36,690 nucleotides of DNA from Acidobacteriota bacterium (GTDB taxonomy: Bacteria > Acidobacteriota > Terriglobia > Bryobacterales > Bryobacteraceae): the NCBI GenBank assembly GCA_025350695.1, contig JANXXI010000024.1:1-36690 (forward strand), written 5' to 3'. The stretch's first letter is position 1. The number at the start of each line of letters is the position of its first letter. The notes under the pieces were generated by a model, which saw only the letters and a program-made list of their open reading frames with translations, made no database searches and had not been told where the DNA came from. A program made the position numbers and the translations under genes. This document shows positions 33 to 10,030 of the stretch, one piece after another.

Positions 33-674
33 ATGAGTTCAATATTTTCGTGGCGGATTGGAAAAAGTAGTAAGCTGATTTTCTTTTTCCCCGTTGCCTT
101 GATGGGTAGGGATTTTTACCTGCTGCCGTCATCGTTTGAGGCGGCAGTGGGCGAACGATTAACCGTTCGAGTGCATTACGGGGCACACTTCCCTAACAGC
201 GACAGTGCGCCTGTTCTGGCCGATTCTGGTATCTACACAACGAAGGCCGCCTACAGTCTGGTGAACGCTCACGCAGAGGGCAATTCGCTTGTGTTGGAAG
301 GTAACCTGAAGGCTGCGGGCGTTGCGATTCTTGCGGCAGAATCAAAACCAAGAACCGAAAATGGTATCCGCTATCTGGACTTTGCCAAGGCAATCGTCGT
401 TGTCGAGAAAGCCGACAGCAATGCCACAAAACGACTGGGCGCCATTCTTGAAATCGTCCCCATGGCTTTGCCGAAACTGGGTGACGTTCAATTCCGTGTC
501 TTGTTTCTGAAAAAGCCGTTGGAAACTCCGCTGGAGATAAGTATCGCATCCGACCGAATAACCAACGCCAACGGCCTTTTTCATTTCGACGCGCACCAAC
601 GCTATTTGCTGCGCGCCAGACATACCGAAGGCGATACCGTCTACTCCGCCACGCTAACCTTTGAAGTCCGATAA
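33..674 (+). CDS. Secreted DUF4198-like protein
   Basis: The ATG at 33 gives about 213 residues beginning with a basic stretch and a hydrophobic segment (IFFFPVAL), which looks like a signal peptide. The mature part opens with DFYLLPSSF, followed by GERLTVRVHYG and FPNSD. This resembles, from memory, the start of DUF4198 proteins (related to the NikM-like accessory proteins of Co/Ni uptake), which usually begin with an A-H-D-F-W-type motif; here the position before D is G-R, not A-H. The remainder is beta-rich, with no catalytic motif I recognise. The reading frame is also open upstream to position 3 (TTG), so the start could lie outside the window. The 3' end overlaps the convergent ATPase gene by 21 bp. 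A periplasmic location is likely; a role in metal handling is only a family-level guess. Confidence 0.6.
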   Translation: MSSIFSWRIGKSSKLIFFFPVALMGRDFYLLPSSFEAAVGERLTVRVHYGAHFPNSDSAPVLADSGIYTTKAAYSLVNAHAEGNSLVLEGNLKAAGVAILAAESKPRTENGIRYLDFAKAIVVVEKADSNATKRLGAILEIVPMALPKLGDVQFRVLFLKKPLETPLEISIASDRITNANGLFHFDAHQRYLLRARHTEGDTVYSATLTFEVR

Positions 675-3035
675 CGGCCCGGGGCTCCAACCCAAAGCGA
701 ACAATCGAACTGCCACATTCGTTTTCTTCGGGGCAATAGAGACCTTCTGGAACTCCTCCTTCCGCACGTCGTATTTGGTTTGCAGCGCGGCGATTTCCGC
801 CTGAACCTCCGTCTCCATATCGGTTTTCTGTTTGGCCATTGCCGTGGCGTCTTCTTCGGCTCTGCCAACATCGCCTTGTTCCTTTACTGTTCTTCCGATT
901 GATTTCGCCGCTGTGGCGACGCGGCCCATTTCAGTTGCGGTGATTGCTTTTTTGCCCAGGAACGCACCCAACAACGACGTGCCTACCGCAAGCACCGTGG
1001 AGAATGCCTGCGACTTCACTTGCGATTTTTCCACTTCCGTTTTTTCTTGAGCCCTCCGAATCTTCTCGTCCAATTTGGCTAGCTTGTCCGCGTAGTCGTT
1101 GCGCAGATCCGCTACTGCCTGATCGCGCTGCACGCGGGCCTCATTCGAAATTCGAATTCGGAAATCGCCTTCACTCTCACCGGGTTCCGACTTCTTGCCG
1201 GTACTAGAGCTGACGAACAGTTCAAGCCTCCGGTTGGCGCAAATGTAAGTGATCAGGTCCTTGGTCCAGCCAGCGTAACTCTTGGGTTTAGTAGCGACCG
1301 GGGCTAACTCTTCGTAGTTCGCGTCGGCGACGCCCGCCTTCTCCAAACTTTCCAGGTCGAACGACATTACCTCGGCATCTTCCCACTTCACGGGGATTAC
1401 TTCCGTTGTCACCGGCGTGCCAATCGTCACGTCTTCGGTGAAGTCTATTCCTGATTTATCGTCCACGTAACGCGCTTGCAAATGGGCCAGCAGCACGGGT
1501 TGATAAACCGGCGGCGTCGAACTTTTGGTGGGCAGGAAGTATTGCGGGATCTCTCCGGGCAGAACAGGGCGGGCAACTGCGACTGCTGCCGACATCGCTT
1601 CAGCGGCCGAGGCCGCTTTGTCCTTCGCGCCATCTGCCGGTGCTGGCTTTCGTCCCGCCATCAAGACTCTGATTTGCGCTTTAGTAACAGGACCGGCTAG
1701 GTAACTTAACGCCCATCGAGTCTCGAACACTTCCATTTCACCGGTGTGGATGTTGTTTATCAGGAAGACGCGTTTGGCTAAAGAGGAGAGTAGTTTGTCC
1801 AACGCCGCCGGGTCAGCCTTGCCACCCGATGCCGTTGCCGCGCCCACCAACCCTTCAACTAAACGCGCCTTATCGCGTTCGGTTTGCAAGCGGCCAATCA
1901 GCCATGTACCGCAATTGGAAAGTCCCTTGTAATCGAGGTCAACGGGATTTTGAGTAGCCAGCACAACACCAACGCCGAAGGCGCGCGCCTGCTTCAACAT
2001 CGTCAGTAATGGCTGCTTTGATGGCGGATTTGCGACCGGCGGGAAGTAGCCAAAAATTTCGTCCATGTAGACAATGGCGCGCAGGCTTGAGGTTCCCGGT
2101 TGGGTCCGCATCCAACTCAGCGTTTGGTTCAGCAGCAGCGAGACGAAGAACATGCGTTCGGGGTCGCTCAAATGCGCGATAGAAAAAATGGAGATGCGGG
2201 GCTTGCCCTTCGATGTATAAAGCAGTGACTTAATGTCGAGGGGATCGCCTTCGAGCCAAGCCTCAAATCCGGGCGAGGCGATCAGGTTGTTCAGTTGCAC
2301 CGCCAACGCAAAACGCTCCTTCGAAGGAAAGAAGGCATCCAGCTCCATCACGCCGATGCGTGTGATAGGCGGGTTTTGAATTTGGCCGATGATTGCCGGT
2401 AAATCCAGGTTGTTCCCTTTCACCCAAGCCGTTTCAAGGATCTTCGAGATTAAAATATGCTCGCGGCTTTGCAGCGGGTCGGCGTCAATCTGCAATAGGC
2501 CGAGCAAGGCGGTGACGGTGGATGCAATCTGTTCGCGGAAGGCCTCGCGATCGTCGCGAGTTTCTGGTGGGGGCGTATCGAACGATCGCAATACGGAGAC
2601 AGAAAGACCCGCGTTGCTACCTGGAGTGTAGATGGAAAAATCCGCTGAGTCTTTCAGGCGCTGGATGCGATCGCCGTCTTCACCCCACTTGGCCAACCCA
2701 TCTTTCCAGTTTTGCGCCGTATTGGTCGCTAGCTGTTCTTTCGATATACCTTGTCGCTGCGCTTCTTCTTCACCGACCCACGGTTCAAAGTCCGAGCCCT
2801 TCAGGTCAGGGAATTGAAGCAGGAGGTTTGAGAGGTCGCCCTTGGGGTCGATCACTATTGCCGGCACGCCGTCGATGGCGGCTTCTTCCAGCAGGCTGAT
2901 GCAGAGACCTGTTTTGCCACTGCCGGTCATACCGACGCAGATGGCGTGAGTAACCAGATCCTTTGAGTTATAGAGAAGTGCGCCATTGTCGGTGTGGCCC
3001 AAGTAGAAGGCGCCAAGTTTTTCAAAATCCTGCAT
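654..3035 (-). CDS. HerA/FtsK-type P-loop ATPase of a conserved uncharacterised family
   Basis: A 793-residue protein. A canonical Walker A (GMTGSGKT, residues 35-42) is followed by a second strand with IDPKGD (62-67), a Walker B with acidic pair (IVYMDE, about 321-326) and a sensor-like ATQNP (360-364). That order is typical of the DUF87/HerA/VirD4 branch of RecA-fold hexameric motors. After about residue 614 the protein becomes charged and helical: a probable coiled coil (about 628-678), a short hydrophobic Gly/Ala/Leu segment (about 677-694), then a second coiled coil (about 720-765). From memory this is a strongly conserved stand-alone ATPase in soil bacteria with no assigned function. 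The hydrophobic segment between coiled coils could be a membrane or self-association element. The gene is monocistronic: it is divergent from the beta-lactamase-like gene and convergent with the DUF4198 gene. No nuclease partner (NurA) is adjacent. Confidence 0.85.
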   Translation of the reverse strand: MQDFEKLGAFYLGHTDNGALLYNSKDLVTHAICVGMTGSGKTGLCISLLEEAAIDGVPAIVIDPKGDLSNLLLQFPDLKGSDFEPWVGEEEAQRQGISKEQLATNTAQNWKDGLAKWGEDGDRIQRLKDSADFSIYTPGSNAGLSVSVLRSFDTPPPETRDDREAFREQIASTVTALLGLLQIDADPLQSREHILISKILETAWVKGNNLDLPAIIGQIQNPPITRIGVMELDAFFPSKERFALAVQLNNLIASPGFEAWLEGDPLDIKSLLYTSKGKPRISIFSIAHLSDPERMFFVSLLLNQTLSWMRTQPGTSSLRAIVYMDEIFGYFPPVANPPSKQPLLTMLKQARAFGVGVVLATQNPVDLDYKGLSNCGTWLIGRLQTERDKARLVEGLVGAATASGGKADPAALDKLLSSLAKRVFLINNIHTGEMEVFETRWALSYLAGPVTKAQIRVLMAGRKPAPADGAKDKAASAAEAMSAAVAVARPVLPGEIPQYFLPTKSSTPPVYQPVLLAHLQARYVDDKSGIDFTEDVTIGTPVTTEVIPVKWEDAEVMSFDLESLEKAGVADANYEELAPVATKPKSYAGWTKDLITYICANRRLELFVSSSTGKKSEPGESEGDFRIRISNEARVQRDQAVADLRNDYADKLAKLDEKIRRAQEKTEVEKSQVKSQAFSTVLAVGTSLLGAFLGKKAITATEMGRVATAAKSIGRTVKEQGDVGRAEEDATAMAKQKTDMETEVQAEIAALQTKYDVRKEEFQKVSIAPKKTNVAVRLFALGWSPGPLSDFKG

Positions 3036-3084
3036 AGAGTCTATTAGTGTATCGGAGTCGCGAATGGCGATAACATGGGGAACT

Positions 3085-3966
3085 ATGCGAGCTCTGATTC
3101 CTGAACTCTTTTTGCTTTCCGCCGTTGGATTTGGCCAAGCGCGGCAAGTTGATGCACTTCTTGAAAAGAAGACAATGAGCGCTCTTCAGGAACTTGCAGG
3201 CAAGCTGGATGGAGTGATGGGCGTCGCGGCGATTGATCTTACTACAGGCCATACCATTGCGATGAATGCCACAACTGTTTTCCCGCAAGCCAGTTCCATT
3301 AAGATCCCTGTGATGATTCAGGTGTTTCGCGATATCCGGCGAGGGAAATTACGAATGGAGCAGGAAGTTGCCGCCGATGCGAAGAAACTTGTCGATAGTA
3401 GTCCGCGTTTTAAAGCCGCGGCTGAAGCCACCGGCAAGATGACGATTCGGCAACTGATTGAGGCCATGATTGAAGTGAGCGACAACGCCGCAACTAACGT
3501 TCTGATCCAGCTTGTAGGGATGGCCAACGTCAACGCCTGGCTGGATTCCGTGCAACTGAAGCAGACGCGGCTGCGGCGCAAGATGATCGACATCGCGGCG
3601 GCCACGCGGAATGAGGAAAATGTTTCAACCCCGCTTGAGATGGCGGCGTTAGTGGCCAAGTTGTATCGCGGTGAAGTGATCGACAAGGCTGCTTCGGCCG
3701 AGATGATTGAAATCCTGTCGCGCGTGAAGGGTGACTTCCGCGGTGCGATTCCCGAAGGCGTTGGTGTGGCGGCGAAACCTGGGGAACTGACTGGGGTCCG
3801 GTGTGAGACGGGCATTGTTTATCTAGACAAAAGGCCTTTCGTGCTCAGTGTCACCAGCGCCTTTCTAGGAGAGAAAATGAACCCCGTGCCGGAAGTTGCC
3901 AAAATCATATTTCGTCATTTTGAAATGCTGGCCAAGTCAAATCGCTACGGGCGCAGTCTACAATAG
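3085..3966 (+). CDS. Class A beta-lactamase-like serine hydrolase, secreted
   Basis: I prefer the ATG at 3085 over the in-frame ATG at 3064 because it begins a good signal peptide (MRALIPELFLLSAVGFG), giving about 293 residues. Motifs of the penicillin-recognising fold appear in order: SxxK as SSIK, SDN as VSDNAATN, and the third box as KPGELTG. The third box therefore has Pro where active class A enzymes have Thr or Ser (K-T/S-G), and no clear ExxxN omega-loop glutamate is seen beyond NEEN. Many such homologues are annotated as class A beta-lactamase-related serine hydrolases without shown resistance activity, so a cell-wall or other amide/ester substrate is as likely. It is the first gene of a tightly packed operon; the next gene begins 6 bp after its stop. 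Confidence 0.85.
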   Translation: MRALIPELFLLSAVGFGQARQVDALLEKKTMSALQELAGKLDGVMGVAAIDLTTGHTIAMNATTVFPQASSIKIPVMIQVFRDIRRGKLRMEQEVAADAKKLVDSSPRFKAAAEATGKMTIRQLIEAMIEVSDNAATNVLIQLVGMANVNAWLDSVQLKQTRLRRKMIDIAAATRNEENVSTPLEMAALVAKLYRGEVIDKAASAEMIEILSRVKGDFRGAIPEGVGVAAKPGELTGVRCETGIVYLDKRPFVLSVTSAFLGEKMNPVPEVAKIIFRHFEMLAKSNRYGRSLQ

Positions 3967-3972
3967 GTTCTT

Positions 3973-4500
3973 ATGGAACTTAAGGGCAAGCGAGTTGCAG
4001 TGTTGGTGGACAACGTCTACCAGGAAATGGAAGTTTGGTACCCGCTCTATAGGCTGCAGGAAGCCGGTGCGGAAGTAGTGACGGTTGGAGCAGAGAAGGG
4101 AAAGACATACACAAGCAAGCTAGGCTACCCGTGCGTTGCCGGCATTTCTTATGACGAAGTGAACTCTGCCCATTTCGATGGCGTGGTTGTACCAGGCGGC
4201 TTTGCCCCGGATCATATTCGCCGTCACCCGAAGGCGACTCAGTTCGTACACGACATGGATGCGCAAAACAAACTCGTAGCCGCGATCTGTCACGGGCCTT
4301 GGGTTTTGTGTTCGTCGCGCATGTTGAAAGGCCGCAAGCTCACGTGCTTCTTTGCGATCAAGGATGATTGCATCAATGCCGGAGCGGAGTGGAGCGATGC
4401 GGAAGTGGTTGTAGACCGCAATCTGGTCACCAGCCGCAAGCCAGAGGATTTGCCGGCCTTCTGCCGCGCAACAATTCAAGTTCTTCAAAAACAGGGGTAA
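3973..4500 (+). CDS. DJ-1/PfpI family protein
   Basis: A 175-residue single-domain protein of normal family length. The nucleophile elbow is AICHGPW with Cys106 followed by His107, and the conserved acidic residue that lowers the cysteine pKa in the family is present near the N-terminus in the EMEVWYP motif (Glu20). A VVPGGFAPD loop (73-80) is the usual glycine-rich loop preceding the active site. The family includes PfpI-type proteases, class I glutamine-amidotransferase-like enzymes and DJ-1/YajL/Hsp31 stress proteins (glyoxalase and disputed deglycase activities). There is no signal peptide, so it is cytoplasmic, unlike its two flanking genes. Its position between secreted enzymes suggests co-expression, possibly for carbonyl stress from the dehydrogenase reaction, which is inference. 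Confidence 0.9.
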   Translation: MELKGKRVAVLVDNVYQEMEVWYPLYRLQEAGAEVVTVGAEKGKTYTSKLGYPCVAGISYDEVNSAHFDGVVVPGGFAPDHIRRHPKATQFVHDMDAQNKLVAAICHGPWVLCSSRMLKGRKLTCFFAIKDDCINAGAEWSDAEVVVDRNLVTSRKPEDLPAFCRATIQVLQKQG

Positions 4501-4504
4501 GATA

Positions 4505-6145
4505 TTGAAACAGTTTTTGACCTTCCTTTGCGCTTCAACTGTGTTGCTGGCGCAGCATGCCACTAAGGATGATTGGCCGCACTATGGAGGTGAGCGTAGC
4601 TCGTGGCGCTACAGCGAACTGAACCAAATCAACGCCGCCAACGTGAAGAAATTGGTCCCAGTGTGGGTCTTTCAACCGGGTGAGATCGACGGCGGCTTGC
4701 AGGCCACGCCTCTCGTCATTGATGGAGTGATGTATCTAATCACGTCGAAAGCGAAGGTGTTCGCCATTGATGCCGTCACAGGCAAGGAATTGTGGCACTA
4801 CAACTACCAACTTCCTGCCGGCTTCACTATTTTCTATGGACCTTGGAATAGAGGAGTGGCCGTTGCGGGCGGTCGCGTTTTCTTTGGGACGCTCGACAAT
4901 TTTGTGGTGGCGCTTGATCAGAAGACGGGCAAGGAATTATGGAAAGTGAATGTTGAGGATGCCGGGCAGTGCGGTTGCAATATTACGTCAGCCCCGCTCA
5001 TCGCTAAGGACAAAGTGTTGGTTGGCGTCACTGGCGGTGATTCGGCCCATCGCGGTTACATCAACGCGTTCGACCAAAAGACGGGCCGCCATGCGTGGCG
5101 ATTCTGGACCATTCCAGGCCCTGGCGAAAAGGGCGCGGAAACATGGTCAGGCGATAGCTGGAAGTATGGCGGCGGGTCCACTTGGATGACCGGCAGCTTT
5201 GATGCTGATCTTGGCCTTGTGTATTGGGGCGTTGGCAATCCCGCGGCTGATTTTTACGGCGGGTCTCGTAAGGGCGACAACTTGTATACCGATAGCATTG
5301 TGGCGCTGGATGCTGATTCGGGCAAGTTGAAGTGGCATTTCCAACAGGTCCCGCATGATGTTTGGGATTGGGACGCTGCCTACGAATGCGTGTTGTTCGA
5401 TGCCGACGTGAAGGGAGTGAAGCGCAAGCTTTTACTTAACGTCAACAAGGGCGGCTACACCTTTGTGCTCGATCGCGTTAGCGGTGAATTTATTTCTGCC
5501 TGGCCGGTGGCGCGCAATATTAATTGGATCAAAGGCGTCGATGCTAAGGGCCAACTGATTGGCCGCAACGAACCTGAGGTAGGCAAGGCAAAGACGATTT
5601 GTCCCTCAATCGGCGGCGGTCGTAGTTGGAATCAAGGCGCGTATTCACCTCGCACGGGACTGTTCTACACGACTGGGCAGGAGTGGTGCCAGGAAGTGAT
5701 AGCGCGCGAAGAGAAACCACAGGAAGGGAAAGAATTTTTCGGCGGAACCTTCACATTGAAACGCACTCCGGTTGGCTCGGTAGGTAGCCACCTGGATGCT
5801 TACGACCCGATTACGGGCGAAAAGAAATGGGGCTTCGAGTATAAATATTTGCTGTTGGCCTCGGTGCTTGCCACTGCTGGGGATTTGCTTTTTACCGGAG
5901 ACCCTGAAGGCAACTTTTTCGCGATGGACGCAAAGACGGGAAAGAAGCTGTGGAATTTCCAGACCGGTTCTGGTCATCGCGGCAGCTCCATTTCTTATGG
6001 CGTAAAAGGGCGGCAGTACGTTGCGACGCCCAGCGGATTTGGATCGGCGTTAGCCGGCTTGATGGCGCAGCTTTGGCCTGAGGCGGAGAATTTCAAACCT
6101 GGATCGGCCGTGTTTGTATTCGCACTGCCAGAGGAAGGGCAGTGA
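4505..6145 (+). CDS. PQQ-dependent alcohol-type dehydrogenase (quinoprotein)
   Basis: Starts at a TTG four bases after the previous stop, supported by an AGGGGT Shine-Dalgarno tract just upstream, and begins with a signal peptide (residues 1-17), so it acts in the periplasm. The 546 residues form an eight-bladed propeller with repeated W-docking motifs such as TGKELWHY, TGKELWKV and SGKLKWHF. Active-site features: a Cys pair as QCGCN (C156/C158, one residue between, whereas methanol dehydrogenase has adjacent cysteines), GGDS (D179 where calcium enzymes have Glu), GVGNPA (N245) and HDVWDWD (D288 and D290). It should oxidise an alcohol or sugar and pass electrons to the cytochrome c encoded next, whose start overlaps its stop by 4 bp (GTGA). 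Substrate unknown. The second Asp of the DWD motif is discussed as a finding. Confidence 0.92.
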   Translation: MKQFLTFLCASTVLLAQHATKDDWPHYGGERSSWRYSELNQINAANVKKLVPVWVFQPGEIDGGLQATPLVIDGVMYLITSKAKVFAIDAVTGKELWHYNYQLPAGFTIFYGPWNRGVAVAGGRVFFGTLDNFVVALDQKTGKELWKVNVEDAGQCGCNITSAPLIAKDKVLVGVTGGDSAHRGYINAFDQKTGRHAWRFWTIPGPGEKGAETWSGDSWKYGGGSTWMTGSFDADLGLVYWGVGNPAADFYGGSRKGDNLYTDSIVALDADSGKLKWHFQQVPHDVWDWDAAYECVLFDADVKGVKRKLLLNVNKGGYTFVLDRVSGEFISAWPVARNINWIKGVDAKGQLIGRNEPEVGKAKTICPSIGGGRSWNQGAYSPRTGLFYTTGQEWCQEVIAREEKPQEGKEFFGGTFTLKRTPVGSVGSHLDAYDPITGEKKWGFEYKYLLLASVLATAGDLLFTGDPEGNFFAMDAKTGKKLWNFQTGSGHRGSSISYGVKGRQYVATPSGFGSALAGLMAQLWPEAENFKPGSAVFVFALPEEGQ

Positions 6146-6900
6146 TCGTATTGGCCCTGTTGATGGCGGCGCAGACTGCGCCGGTGGTTCAGGGCGAAAA
6201 GATCTTTAACCAGAGTTGCGCGGTTGGCTATTGCCACGGCACGGGCGGCGCGGCGTCACGCGGACCAAGGTTGCGCGGCAGAACGTTAGCGCGGGACTAT
6301 CTGGTGAAGGTGACAAGTGACGGTGTTCCGAACACGGCTATGCCGGCGTGGAAAGGGCGGCTTGGCGAGGTTGAAATCCAGGCCGTAACGGATTACATAA
6401 TGAGCTTGGCCAACGCTACTGGTGAGGCTAGCGGCTCGCAACCGGTACAAGAGCCCGTGGTGCTTCGCGGAGCCGATGGCCCAGCCGGCGTTGAACTGGG
6501 CCGGGAACTGTTTTTCGATCCAGTTCGCCAGAACCGATGCTCGACCTGTCATCGCATCGCAGGCGTGGGCGTGGCGGTCGGCCCCGATCTTACTAAGAGA
6601 CGCCCTCAAAAACTTTCAACTGTTCTGCGCAACACAAAACTGAGGTCCGTTTCAGTGGTCAAGTTGAAAGATGGAGAAACTTTGACCGGTGTTATTGCCG
6701 AACGAACCACGCAGGCTGTTCGTATCTTTGACATGACGGGGGCGGCGCCTCCCGTGTTGCGAAGTTTCAGTCCGGGCGACGTGGTAACCATCACGCTTGC
6801 GCGCCAGTGGGCGCATGCCGGCGCTTTGAAGGATTACAAGGGAAATGAATTGGAAGCAATTAGCAAGTACCTCAATTGGATGGCGGTCGGCAAAAAATGA
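6142..6900 (+). CDS. Di-haem cytochrome c, probable electron acceptor of the PQQ dehydrogenase
   Basis: A GTG start overlapping the dehydrogenase stop gives 252 residues with a short N-terminal hydrophobic signal. The first domain (about 18-92) has a haem motif CAVGYCH (26-32), that is CX4CH instead of CXXCH, with a likely axial Met in TAMPAW (M67). The second domain has a standard CSTCH (133-137) followed by GPDLTKR and KDGETLTGVI, which matches the haem-binding domain type seen in Planctomycetes, Verrucomicrobia and Acidobacteria proteins (TIGR02603-like). The gene order, dehydrogenase then cytochrome with a 4-bp overlap, supports the electron-transfer role. The next gene's ATG overlaps its stop in an ATGA. 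Confidence 0.9.
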   Translation: MIVLALLMAAQTAPVVQGEKIFNQSCAVGYCHGTGGAASRGPRLRGRTLARDYLVKVTSDGVPNTAMPAWKGRLGEVEIQAVTDYIMSLANATGEASGSQPVQEPVVLRGADGPAGVELGRELFFDPVRQNRCSTCHRIAGVGVAVGPDLTKRRPQKLSTVLRNTKLRSVSVVKLKDGETLTGVIAERTTQAVRIFDMTGAAPPVLRSFSPGDVVTITLARQWAHAGALKDYKGNELEAISKYLNWMAVGKK

Positions 6901-7823
6901 CGACGCCATCTATAACTGTTGAAAACCTGCATAAGTCGTACGGCGCTTTTGAAGCAGTAGGCGGCATCAGTTTTGAAGTGCAACCAGGCGAAGTGTTTGG
7001 GCTGCTTGGCCCCAACGGCGCTGGTAAAACCACCACGGTTGAAATCCTGGAGGGGCTCCGTCCGCGCACGTCGGGTAACGTCAAGGTGTTGGGTTTTGAT
7101 CCGGGCGTTGACGTCAAGGCGTTGAAGGATCGCATCGGTGTTTGCCTTCAATCGACCAACTTGCCGGAGAAGATCAAACTTCATGAGGCGATGACGCTCT
7201 TCGCCTCGTTTTACTCTCACACGGTGGATGCGAATAAGCTGCTTGACCGGCTGCAATTGACCGAAAAGCGTAACGCCTTTTACAGCGTGCTTTCCGGCGG
7301 CCAAAAGCAACGCTTGCACATTGCGCTGGCGATGATCAATGACCCACAACTGATATTCCTTGATGAACCAACAACGGGTCTTGACCCGCAAATCCGTCTG
7401 GAGATTCACGGGCTGATTCAAGAACTCCGCGACGACAAACGGTCAATTGTTTTGACCACTCACTACATTGAGGAAGCCGAACGTTTGTGTGATCGGGTCG
7501 CGATCATCGACGCCGGAAAAATCATCGCGCATGGCACACCGAAACAGTTGATGGCGGAAACGCTTGGCGCATCTGTCGTCGAAGTCAAAATTGAAAAGCC
7601 GCTGCCGCCGGGTGATTTGCCGTCGGGGATTGGCGCCGATCACATTGACATCAGCGAAGATCGGAAGGAAATCAAGATCACGGCGAAGAAGCCCGCCAGA
7701 GCCATGGTGGAACTGGTGAAGTACATCGATCAATTGGGGCTGGAACTGGTTGACATCCATCTAAAACGCGGAACCCTTGAGGATGTATTCCTGCAGTTGA
7801 CCGGCAAGAAGCTACGCGAATGA
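6897..7823 (+). CDS. ABC transporter ATP-binding protein (ABC-2 / drug-export type)
   Basis: I choose the ATG at 6897, which overlaps the cytochrome stop (ATGA), over an in-frame TTG at 6876. The 308-residue protein has Walker A GPNGAGKT (38-45), Q-loop near QSTN (85-88), signature LSGGQ (132-136), Walker B LIFLDE (152-157) and a switch His in LTTHYIEEAERL. The C-terminal about 80 residues form the regulatory extension seen in CcmA/DrrA-type exporters. It pairs with the permease encoded next, whose ATG again overlaps this stop by 4 bp. One ATPase plus one six-helix ABC-2 permease would be expected to form a homodimeric exporter. The substrate cannot be read from the sequence. Confidence 0.93.
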   Translation: MTTPSITVENLHKSYGAFEAVGGISFEVQPGEVFGLLGPNGAGKTTTVEILEGLRPRTSGNVKVLGFDPGVDVKALKDRIGVCLQSTNLPEKIKLHEAMTLFASFYSHTVDANKLLDRLQLTEKRNAFYSVLSGGQKQRLHIALAMINDPQLIFLDEPTTGLDPQIRLEIHGLIQELRDDKRSIVLTTHYIEEAERLCDRVAIIDAGKIIAHGTPKQLMAETLGASVVEVKIEKPLPPGDLPSGIGADHIDISEDRKEIKITAKKPARAMVELVKYIDQLGLELVDIHLKRGTLEDVFLQLTGKKLRE

Positions 7824-10030
7824 ACAAGTACATCGTAAATATTCTGACCAATCTGAAGCTGACCTCGCGCGACCGCATGGCCTTGTTTTTTGGGTATGCG
7901 TTTCCGTTGGTATTCTTCTTTATCTTTGCGCAAGCGAACGGCAGTGGGTTAGGCGGGGCCATCTCCGTTGTCGTTTCAAGCGTACTCATCATCGGCGTGT
8001 TGGGAAACGGATTGTTCGGCGCTGGGATCAGGGCCGTTTCTGATCGCGAGGCGGGCATCTTGCGCCGGTACAAGGTGGCCCCCACTACAGCTGCGCCGAT
8101 TGTTGTGTCTTCGCTGGTAACCGGTTGCGTGAACTATGTTCCTTCCGCCACGCTCATTGTTGTACTCGCTCACTTCGTGTACGGCATGCCGTGGCCCGAG
8201 CGTTGGCTGTCTCTCATTCTCTTCATGATCTTCGCGGTAATGGCCTTCCGGGCGCTTGGCATGATTGTAGCCAGCGTCGTCAATTCCATGCAGGAAAGCC
8301 AGATTGTGATTCAGATGCTCTACTTGCCCATGCTGTTCTTGAGCGGCGCTACCTTTCCCGTGGAGGCCATGCCGGTCTGGTTGCAAAAGGTAGCCGGCTT
8401 TCTTCCCGCTTCGCATTTGAAGATTGGCTTGGATGGCATTCTGGTGAAGAACGAAACGTTACTTGAAAATCGGACGGCCCTCGTGGCCATGATCGCGACG
8501 ATTGCGCTGGCTTCGTTTCTTGCGGTCAAGCTTTTCCGTTGGGAAAAAGAGGACAAGATCAAAACATCCGGAAAGCTGTGGCTGCTGGCTTCGTTAGTCC
8601 CCTTTATGGTGCTTGGCGCCTATCAGGTTAAGTCGGAAGGAAACATCGCAAAGAACAAACAGTTGAGCCGGTCGCTCCGCCGGAGTCACAATTGGCTGAT
8701 TCGCGGCGCCCGCATATTCACGGGAGACGGAAAGGTTATCGCCAAAGGCGCGGTGCTGATCAAGAATGGCAAGATCGCTCAAATATGGGAGGGCGATGGG
8801 CCAGAGCCAAAGTCGGTTCAAGCGGATGCGATTGAAGCCTATGGCAAGACGATTATTCCGGGCTTGATCGATACCCACGTTCATCTGGGCGCCCCAGGCG
8901 GCATTCCTGACAAGTATGGAACCGACGCAAAGGCCTACAGGAAATCCGTGGCTCGTGAATTGGCAGCCTACCTATATTCAGGCGTCACTGCCGTGAAGAG
9001 CGTTGGCGATTCGCTCGATTTGATGCAGGACATGGCCAAGCTCACCGGCAGCGGTGAAAAGTTAGGCGCGGAATTGTTCTATGTTGGGCCGATGTTCACC
9101 ACCGAAGGCGGCCACGGAACGGAATTTTTCAAGAATGTACCTGAGTTCATGAAGAAGCAGATAGAAGGGTCCATGCTTCGATTGCCCAAGACTCGCGAAG
9201 AAGCTACGCGAATGGTAGTGGAACTCAAACCGCAAGGTGTAACCGGAATCAAGGCGATCCTTGAAGCCGGCGGTGGCAGCTTTCACTTCAATCGAATGGA
9301 CACGCTGGTGCTGGCTGGAATCGCCGATGGCGCCAAAGCCAGCGGCTTGCCCCTAGTTGTCCACACTGGCGACGACACCGACATCGACGATGCCCTAAAG
9401 GTTGGCGCCAGCGGTATTGAGCACGGATCGATTCGCGACAAAATAAGTGATGCGCATTTAGCGCTAATGGCTGGCCGTCACGTGTTTTTCGCGCCAACTA
9501 TCACGGTTGTCGATTCGATCAATGCGCTTCGCGCCGGAAACATGGACATTCTTTCGCGTCCGCTATTTGAACAATCCGCGCCCAGGGGACTGCTGGATGC
9601 CACGCGCAAAGCGCTTGCTAAGAATGCCGGCAATGAAAAAAAGGGTCCGGCGTTTGACCAGGAAATGATCGTATCGAACCTGCGGCGGGCCGCGGCTGCC
9701 GGGGTGCCTATCGTCACCGGAACCGATTCCGGGAACGTTCCACTAATTCATGGACCGGCGGTTCACCGCGAAATGCAATTGCTGGTGGCGGCGGGGCTCA
9801 CGCCAACCCAAGCGTTAATTGCCGCGACATCCAATGGCGCTCAGCTACTGGGTGTATCCAACCGCATTGGCTATATCAAGGCTGGCTATGAAGCCACGTT
9901 GCTTATTGTTGATGGGAATCCGCTTGAAGATATTAGCGCCACCGAACGCGGTTTGATCGTGTTTTTTAAGGGGGAGCGAGTTTCAAGAGGGGATCTGTTT
10001 GACGATGACAATGAAGCGCCGTCAAAATAA
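7820..10030 (+). CDS. ABC-2 permease fused to a metal-dependent amidohydrolase
   Basis: One uninterrupted 736-residue reading frame contains two unrelated domains. Residues 1-240 are an ABC-2 type permease with six hydrophobic segments (about 22-37, 48-66, 93-120, 130-155, 161-180, 220-237). A seventh hydrophobic segment (about 253-269) and a short basic linker lead to residues 292-725, an amidohydrolase of the imidazolonepropionase/Xaa-Pro dipeptidase-like group. All metal ligands are present: HVH (H353, H355), candidate carboxylated Lys K478, H515, H535 and D636 in GTDSG. If the permease core has both ends in the cytoplasm, the seventh helix would place the enzyme in the periplasm. The gene overlaps the ATPase gene by 4 bp. 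A frameshift artefact is unlikely because both domains and the linker share one frame. Substrate unknown. Confidence 0.9.
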   Translation: MNKYIVNILTNLKLTSRDRMALFFGYAFPLVFFFIFAQANGSGLGGAISVVVSSVLIIGVLGNGLFGAGIRAVSDREAGILRRYKVAPTTAAPIVVSSLVTGCVNYVPSATLIVVLAHFVYGMPWPERWLSLILFMIFAVMAFRALGMIVASVVNSMQESQIVIQMLYLPMLFLSGATFPVEAMPVWLQKVAGFLPASHLKIGLDGILVKNETLLENRTALVAMIATIALASFLAVKLFRWEKEDKIKTSGKLWLLASLVPFMVLGAYQVKSEGNIAKNKQLSRSLRRSHNWLIRGARIFTGDGKVIAKGAVLIKNGKIAQIWEGDGPEPKSVQADAIEAYGKTIIPGLIDTHVHLGAPGGIPDKYGTDAKAYRKSVARELAAYLYSGVTAVKSVGDSLDLMQDMAKLTGSGEKLGAELFYVGPMFTTEGGHGTEFFKNVPEFMKKQIEGSMLRLPKTREEATRMVVELKPQGVTGIKAILEAGGGSFHFNRMDTLVLAGIADGAKASGLPLVVHTGDDTDIDDALKVGASGIEHGSIRDKISDAHLALMAGRHVFFAPTITVVDSINALRAGNMDILSRPLFEQSAPRGLLDATRKALAKNAGNEKKGPAFDQEMIVSNLRRAAAAGVPIVTGTDSGNVPLIHGPAVHREMQLLVAAGLTPTQALIAATSNGAQLLGVSNRIGYIKAGYEATLLIVDGNPLEDISATERGLIVFFKGERVSRGDLFDDDNEAPSK

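Follow-up and report, generated by a model that had tools for sequence, protein, structure and literature searches.

A DrrAB-like ABC-2 permease fused to an amidohydrolase domain whose catalytic residues were repeatedly lost in the Bryobacteraceae

INTRODUCTION

What does an enzyme contribute when it is joined to the membrane subunit of an export pump, and is its catalysis the reason for the union? The question is raised by a gene of a Bryobacteraceae bacterium (Acidobacteriota), located in a stretch of 36,690 nucleotides (contig JANXXI010000024.1, analyzed at its full length and hereafter called the window), that encodes an ABC-2 permease followed by a metal-dependent amidohydrolase. To our knowledge, no export pump with a fused amidohydrolase has been described, and our literature search returned no such fusion among the matches listed, which were judged partly by the title or the start of the abstract. 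The initial annotation of this gene had proposed that an additional helix places the hydrolase in the periplasm, where a transported substrate could be hydrolyzed.

RESULTS

A permease and an amidohydrolase in one reading frame

The gene is a single ORF (7820-10030, forward strand) of 736 residues with an ATG start and zero internal stops. Pfam recognizes, in this same frame, ABC2_membrane at residues 7 to 200 (PF01061, 4.5e-22) and Amidohydro_1 at residues 344 to 718 (9.3e-27). ORF, Pfam, and alignment agree with the initial claim that one frame encodes a permease and an amidohydrolase with all ligand residues. The features are as follows.

6897..7823, + strand: ABC ATPase (DrrA-like NBD); ABC_tran, 4.9e-29; TIGR01188 drrA, 259 bits (cut-off 312)
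7820..10030, + strand: fused ABC-2 permease/amidohydrolase, 736 residues (ORF list, Pfam)
7820..8536, + strand: six-helix ABC-2 permease, residues 1-239 (Pfam, hydropathy)
8573..8629, + strand: seventh hydrophobic helix, residues 252-270, after a conserved RWEKEEK-like loop (hydropathy)
8630..8692, + strand: positively charged juxtamembrane segment, residues 271-291 (alignment, charge count)
8693..8854, + strand: presumed N-terminal half of the amidohydrolase beta-sandwich, residues 292-345, retained in short forms
8855..9874, + strand: amidohydrolase barrel, residues 346-685 (Pfam, alignment)
8876, 8882, 9251, 9362, 9422, and 9725, + strand: ligand positions H353, H355, K478, H515, H535, and D636, respectively
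9095..9484, + strand: segment 426-555, wholly or partly absent from 38 short relatives (alignment)
9500..9619, + strand: residues 561-600; the equivalent block, with an SLVQQ-like motif, is retained in short forms
9875..10027, + strand: presumed C-terminal half of the beta-sandwich, residues 686-736, retained in short forms

Six hydropathy peaks (Kyte-Doolittle, 19 residues, above 1.2) mark the permease, at 20-38, 43-61, 99-117, 132-150, 162-180, and 221-239, with a weak additional one at 191-209 (1.31). The extra hydrophobic segment initially placed at 253-269 corresponds to a further peak at 252-270 (1.45), here called helix 7. A single-sequence AlphaFold2 model of the protein had a mean pLDDT of 37 and was discarded.

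The hydrolase part holds the four histidines, one lysine, and one aspartate of an amidohydrolase metal site. The roles of the six ligands, assigned by sequence, and the presumed beta-sandwich halves follow what is typical of the superfamily. The ligand roles agree with those in a secreted, distantly related enzyme, compared by ligand set, in which alanine at any of the six positions (four His, Lys, and Asp) is reported to abolish activity (PMC13081902, preprint). In the Protein Data Bank, the closest entries to the hydrolase part are 2qs8, 3mtw, and 2p9b (best 3.2e-22), titled Xaa-Pro dipeptidase, L-arginine carboxypeptidase, and possible prolidase, respectively; 3mkv and 3feq are similar as well. 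The best NCBIfam matches of the whole protein are an Xaa-Pro dipeptidase model (NF051886, 145.6 bits) and drrB (TIGR01247, 65.2 bits), both far under their cut-offs (500 and 223 bits), and the Pfam scan at E 0.001 gave zero matches to C39 peptidases.

Directly upstream lies the ATPase gene, whose stop codon overlaps the permease start (ATGA at 7820-7823). The locus combines a six-helix ABC-2 domain with its own adjacent ATPase gene, bearing Walker A, signature, and DEPT motifs, as ABC-2 exporters do. The ATPase ORF is listed from a TTG at 6876, but the ATG at 6897 is the likelier start.

The fusion is the rule in the family

The initial annotation had asked whether a mis-assembly at 8570-8700 could have created the fusion. 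A congeneric genome that was assembled independently, G013, has the same fusion (residues 1-734 are 79% identical). From the loci analyzed, we collected 153 permease-bearing ORFs, of which the 141 with at least 500 residues were aligned (12 rows were dropped: L037, L054, L060, L061, L062, L063, L065, both of L100, L146, L172, and L173); since L033 and L072 are the same gene, these represent 140 distinct genes. All of them carry the permease and a hydrolase-like part in a single frame, and mis-assembly is excluded because 139 come from other genomes. Nor are homologues always two genes, the state that would have spoken against a genuine fusion: separate, adjacent genes as the only arrangement were rejected, the fused state being the rule in the family and a separate enzyme gene adjoining an ABC-2 permease and an ATPase gene in three distant genomes (G291, G622, and G640). 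As to a stop or frameshift in the linker, the window ORF has none, whereas in L037 (genome G130) a stop near 2274, at the end of helix 7, splits the permease from the hydrolase; its close relatives L040 and L102 are unsplit. In another fused gene, L146, the break falls near residue 464; the genome concerned (G158) is listed as 98% complete.

The window protein matches 96 of 150 genomes of its own family at 1e-40 and 159 of 257 genomes of its order at 1e-50, and the permease part alone matches 162 of these 257 at 1e-25. Across the phylum, 6 of 396 genomes, its own included, match at 1e-50. Fused forms outside the family were found in G707, G724, G726, G631, and G455. Other phyla were covered through a scan of GTDB contigs, which yielded a single distant permease and nothing else, and through plasmid records, of which 391 had a match and none aligned to 80% of the query at a single site. 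As to whether a free-standing enzyme copy might replace the fused domain where that is dead, matches to the enzyme alone within the family (1e-40) occur in G105 and G061, where the fusion is intact, in G003, where it ends at the contig end, and in G076 and G121, where no fusion was matched.

Catalytic residues were lost many times, and the remainder stayed constrained

Of the 140 genes, 82 have the complete set of six ligands. At least one is absent from the other 58, which fall into two groups: 20 full-length point-mutant genes (15 of them without two or more ligands) and 38 short forms of 567 to 690 residues, none with six ligands, in which part or all of the mid-barrel is gone. The largest gap in the short forms starts between residues 421 and 537 and ends between 457 and 560, depending on the gene. 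What they retain is helix 7, the juxtamembrane segment, residues 292-345, the SLVQQ-like block, and residues 640-730, and the same blocks are kept across separate short lineages. Judging from the missing ligand residues, the short and mutant relatives have presumably lost activity.

The permease tree requires 20 changes to account for the dead state and 11 for the short form. If regain is disallowed, the minima (the least number over seven rootings) with branches below 0, 80, and 95 support collapsed are 21, 18, and 12 for any ligand loss, 19, 16, and 10 for the loss of at least two ligands, and 12, 11, and 8 for the short form. Catalysis was thus lost at least 12 to 21 times and the barrel shortened 8 to 12 times on this tree, the exact number being subject to the limited support of single-gene trees. 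A single loss spread by recombination was considered and judged unlikely: a tree built from the retained hydrolase blocks likewise explains the short form with no fewer than 12 changes, which argues against such a spread, although its starred branches force only 4.

The dead hydrolase domains remain under purifying selection. Omega was computed by the Nei-Gojobori method for the 103 pairs whose permeases are more than 80% identical, eight of them mixed; the pairs overlap, the counting method is simple, and dS is near saturation in some. In the hydrolase part, median omega was 0.19 between short forms (36 pairs), 0.12 between mutants (11 pairs), and 0.12 between intact genes (48 pairs), compared with 0.08 to 0.09 in the permease part of all three groups. 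The highest single short pairs reached 0.44, so constraint is looser in some short lineages. Loss of catalytic residues under continued purifying selection, the marks of a pseudoenzyme, thus characterizes the short and mutant relatives and not the window protein.

The ATPase gene persists alongside. Where a locus extends 700 bases or more upstream, an ATPase gene with a Walker A motif precedes the permease in 77 of 79 cases with an intact hydrolase, in 18 of 20 with a point-mutant one, in all 35 with a short one, and in all 3 without a hydrolase; a stricter pattern (Walker A, signature, and DEPT) is found in 59 of the 79 intact and 31 of the 35 short loci.

The proposal that the transported substrate is hydrolyzed therefore finds no support as a general rule: with 58 of 140 genes lacking at least one ligand, 38 of them without part or all of the mid-barrel, and permease, helix 7, and ATPase all kept, hydrolysis cannot be the sole reason for the fusion. 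It could still be argued that hydrolysis at the exit is the conserved purpose and that the dead versions are recent, useless remnants, as the 82 intact sites and the three genomes with an enzyme gene beside unfused ABC-2 genes might suggest. We consider this unlikely, since one clade of 18 genes is short throughout, which means that the dead state is not only recent, and since dead domains are under purifying selection and separate short lineages have retained the same blocks.

The C-terminal domain can be exchanged or lost

Seven-helix permeases also occur with other C-terminal arrangements. Fourteen rows have no extra domain (L060, L061, L062, L182-L188, and L192-L195), and six carry a CIA30-like domain in place of the hydrolase (L176-L181; Pfam confirms five, all but L179). 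L063, L189, and L190 combine the permease with an amidohydrolase and CIA30; others have the amidohydrolase alone. L060 lies within a starred clade of 20 rows, 17 of them intact fusions, and this nesting points to a secondary loss of its hydrolase. In L064 (3426-8712), a gene for an amidohydrolase-CIA30 protein, an ATPase gene, and a gene for a larger, only distantly similar ABC-2 permease stand in a row, so that the enzyme is associated with ABC-2 permeases of more than one type.

Such exchanges are what would be expected if helix 7 were the functional element and the C-terminal domain passive cargo, freely swapped or dropped. We find this quite improbable, because a hydrolase-like match is present in 145 of 149 family rows (from loci retrieved with the full-length query; the exceptions are L060, L061, the split L037, and the second frame of L100) and because the domain is constrained even when dead.

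Helix 7, the side of the membrane, and the reliability of the residue losses

After six ABC-2 helices, one more crossing is needed to bring the C terminus out of the cytoplasm, and helix 7 would provide it. Its hydropathy across the family has a median of 1.64 to 1.71 in the three groups and a minimum of 1.09. In the window protein, a barrel stretch (496-514) scores 1.50, above helix 7, so hydropathy alone is no proof of a membrane helix. The enzyme's unfused relatives point to the outside, their N termini resembling signal peptides, lipoboxes, or anchors. Among the best 30 loci (from 165 matching genomes), 25 hold one, and 24 of these carry an N-terminal hydrophobic export-like segment (hydropathy of at least 1.29 over 17 residues, with provisional start codons), the 25th being cut off; by eye, 3 of the 24 readable relatives have a lipobox and the enzyme paralogues of the window's own genome look secreted. 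The charges do not help: in intact genes, the segment behind helix 7 averages 5.6 K+R and 2.3 D+E against 4.9 and 2.9 in the preceding loop and, being at least as positive, leaves the proposed orientation unsupported by the positive-inside rule. Of the initial placement in the periplasm, then, the export-like N termini speak in favor and the charges after helix 7 against, and we infer that the hydrolase domain is probably extracytoplasmic.

The opposite topology, in which residues 252-270 lie in the membrane plane or re-enter as a helix without crossing and the positive stretch after them remains cytoplasmic, draws on that net charge and on the modest hydropathy of the window's own helix 7. 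We regard it as very doubtful in view of the family-wide hydropathy of this helix and the export-like segments of all readable unfused relatives.

Signal-peptidase cleavage after helix 7 was also considered and rejected, the alignment rows showing, by eye, a conserved G-x-W/Y-Q and no regular A-x-A. Since helix 7 is present in permeases without any hydrolase, an origin from the enzyme's signal anchor is not required.

That errors of assembly, sequencing, or alignment account for the ligand losses can be set aside as extremely improbable: many of the assemblies are fragmented, a stop or frameshift interrupts two loci, and in 5 of the 20 point-mutant genes a single ligand is changed, but short forms form whole clades and occur in genomes of one to three contigs (G098, G143, G144, and G099), and raw counts of the H-x-H motif, which is found in all 82 intact genes, in 8 of the 20 mutant genes, and in 6 of the 38 short ones, match the alignment.

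Genes around the exporter

Across 96 loci, no widely common neighbor besides the ATPase was found, so the neighborhood does not point to a substrate. Relatives of DJ-1/PfpI lie upstream of the exporter in 22 of the 96 loci, 16 of which have dead forms. In both the window (3064-4500) and L174, from the same genus, the exporter is preceded by one gene resembling class A beta-lactamases and one of the DJ-1/PfpI type, and relatives of the former are found near it in 8 of the 96 loci. In the window, genes for a PQQ-dependent dehydrogenase and a cytochrome c (4505-6900) separate the DJ-1/PfpI gene (3973-4500) from the ATPase gene; in L174, a 91% identical DJ-1 gene directly precedes the ATPase gene. 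Relatives of the dehydrogenase and cytochrome c genes again precede the exporter in L058 and L070. Upstream of the cluster, on the reverse strand (654-3035), lies a HerA/DUF87-like ATPase gene, with an 82% identical counterpart on the same side in L174.

DISCUSSION

We favor, with some confidence, the view that these proteins belong to a DrrAB-like exporter with an extracytoplasmic cap, which would be enzymatic in many lineages and would have become a pseudoenzyme in many more. Within such an ABC-2 exporter, the window protein would be the membrane subunit, present in two copies that pair with the ATPase encoded directly upstream. Six helices would form the permease, and the seventh would take the C terminus out of the cytoplasm, placing two amidohydrolase-derived domains beside the pump exit. 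With its complete binuclear metal site, the window protein is a putative amide or peptide hydrolase of the Xaa-Pro or N-acyl-amino-acid type, probably active, whose target may be the compound being exported or else something close to the exit. In relatives with a dead domain, the remainder would most likely serve as a structural or gating cap.

Regarding evolution, we think the chances about even that the enzyme domain was turned repeatedly, through some 8 to 12 removals of overlapping barrel parts and 12 to 21 catalytic losses, into a noncatalytic cap still needed by the exporter, with intact members keeping both roles. A parallel may be found in Pseudomonas, whose aspartate transcarbamoylase is described as requiring an inactive dihydroorotase homologue (PMC7053772), that is, a catalytically dead homologue needed by its partner enzyme. 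The window hydrolase belongs to a different subgroup of the superfamily and is part of a pump. The Pseudomonas enzyme is a soluble complex of separate chains.

Like DrrAB and NodIJ-type ABC-2 exporters, the locus has an ATPase gene directly upstream of a six-helix ABC-2 permease, and its best NCBIfam matches are drrA for the ATPase and drrB for the permease. It differs from them in its scores, which stay below the curated cut-offs for both subunits, and in the seventh helix and C-terminal enzyme domain of the permease. Members of the amidohydrolase superfamily (prolidase, Xaa-Arg carboxypeptidase, and aminoacylase) resemble the hydrolase part in sequence and in the H-x-H, K, H, H, and D ligands, but they are stand-alone enzymes, whereas the family described here is fused to a pump and has often lost the site. 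Peptidase-containing ABC transporters likewise have a hydrolase as part of an export pump; their C39 domain, a cysteine protease, is N-terminal and cytoplasmic, whereas the metal hydrolase of the window protein is C-terminal and probably outside. Fusions of ABC permeases with M1 aminopeptidases exist as an annotation name, and our literature search found no paper combining both terms; judged by that name, they also place a metal peptidase on an ABC permease, but one of another enzyme family.

The kind of pump and the enzyme's relatives, which are described as cleaving Xaa-Pro dipeptides and N-acyl amino acids (PMC11511702), together suggest by analogy that the exported compound may be an amphipathic acyl- or peptidyl-amino acid.

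The evolutionary point is stronger than the novelty of the fusion itself. A single family, with the same kind of ATPase gene, comprises intact, point-mutated, and shortened-barrel enzymes as well as bare seven-helix forms, and thereby makes it testable why a catalytic domain persists after catalysis is gone and which of its parts the pump uses. If the repeated conversion into a cap is true, the family would offer a natural replicate series for the change of an enzyme into a transporter part.
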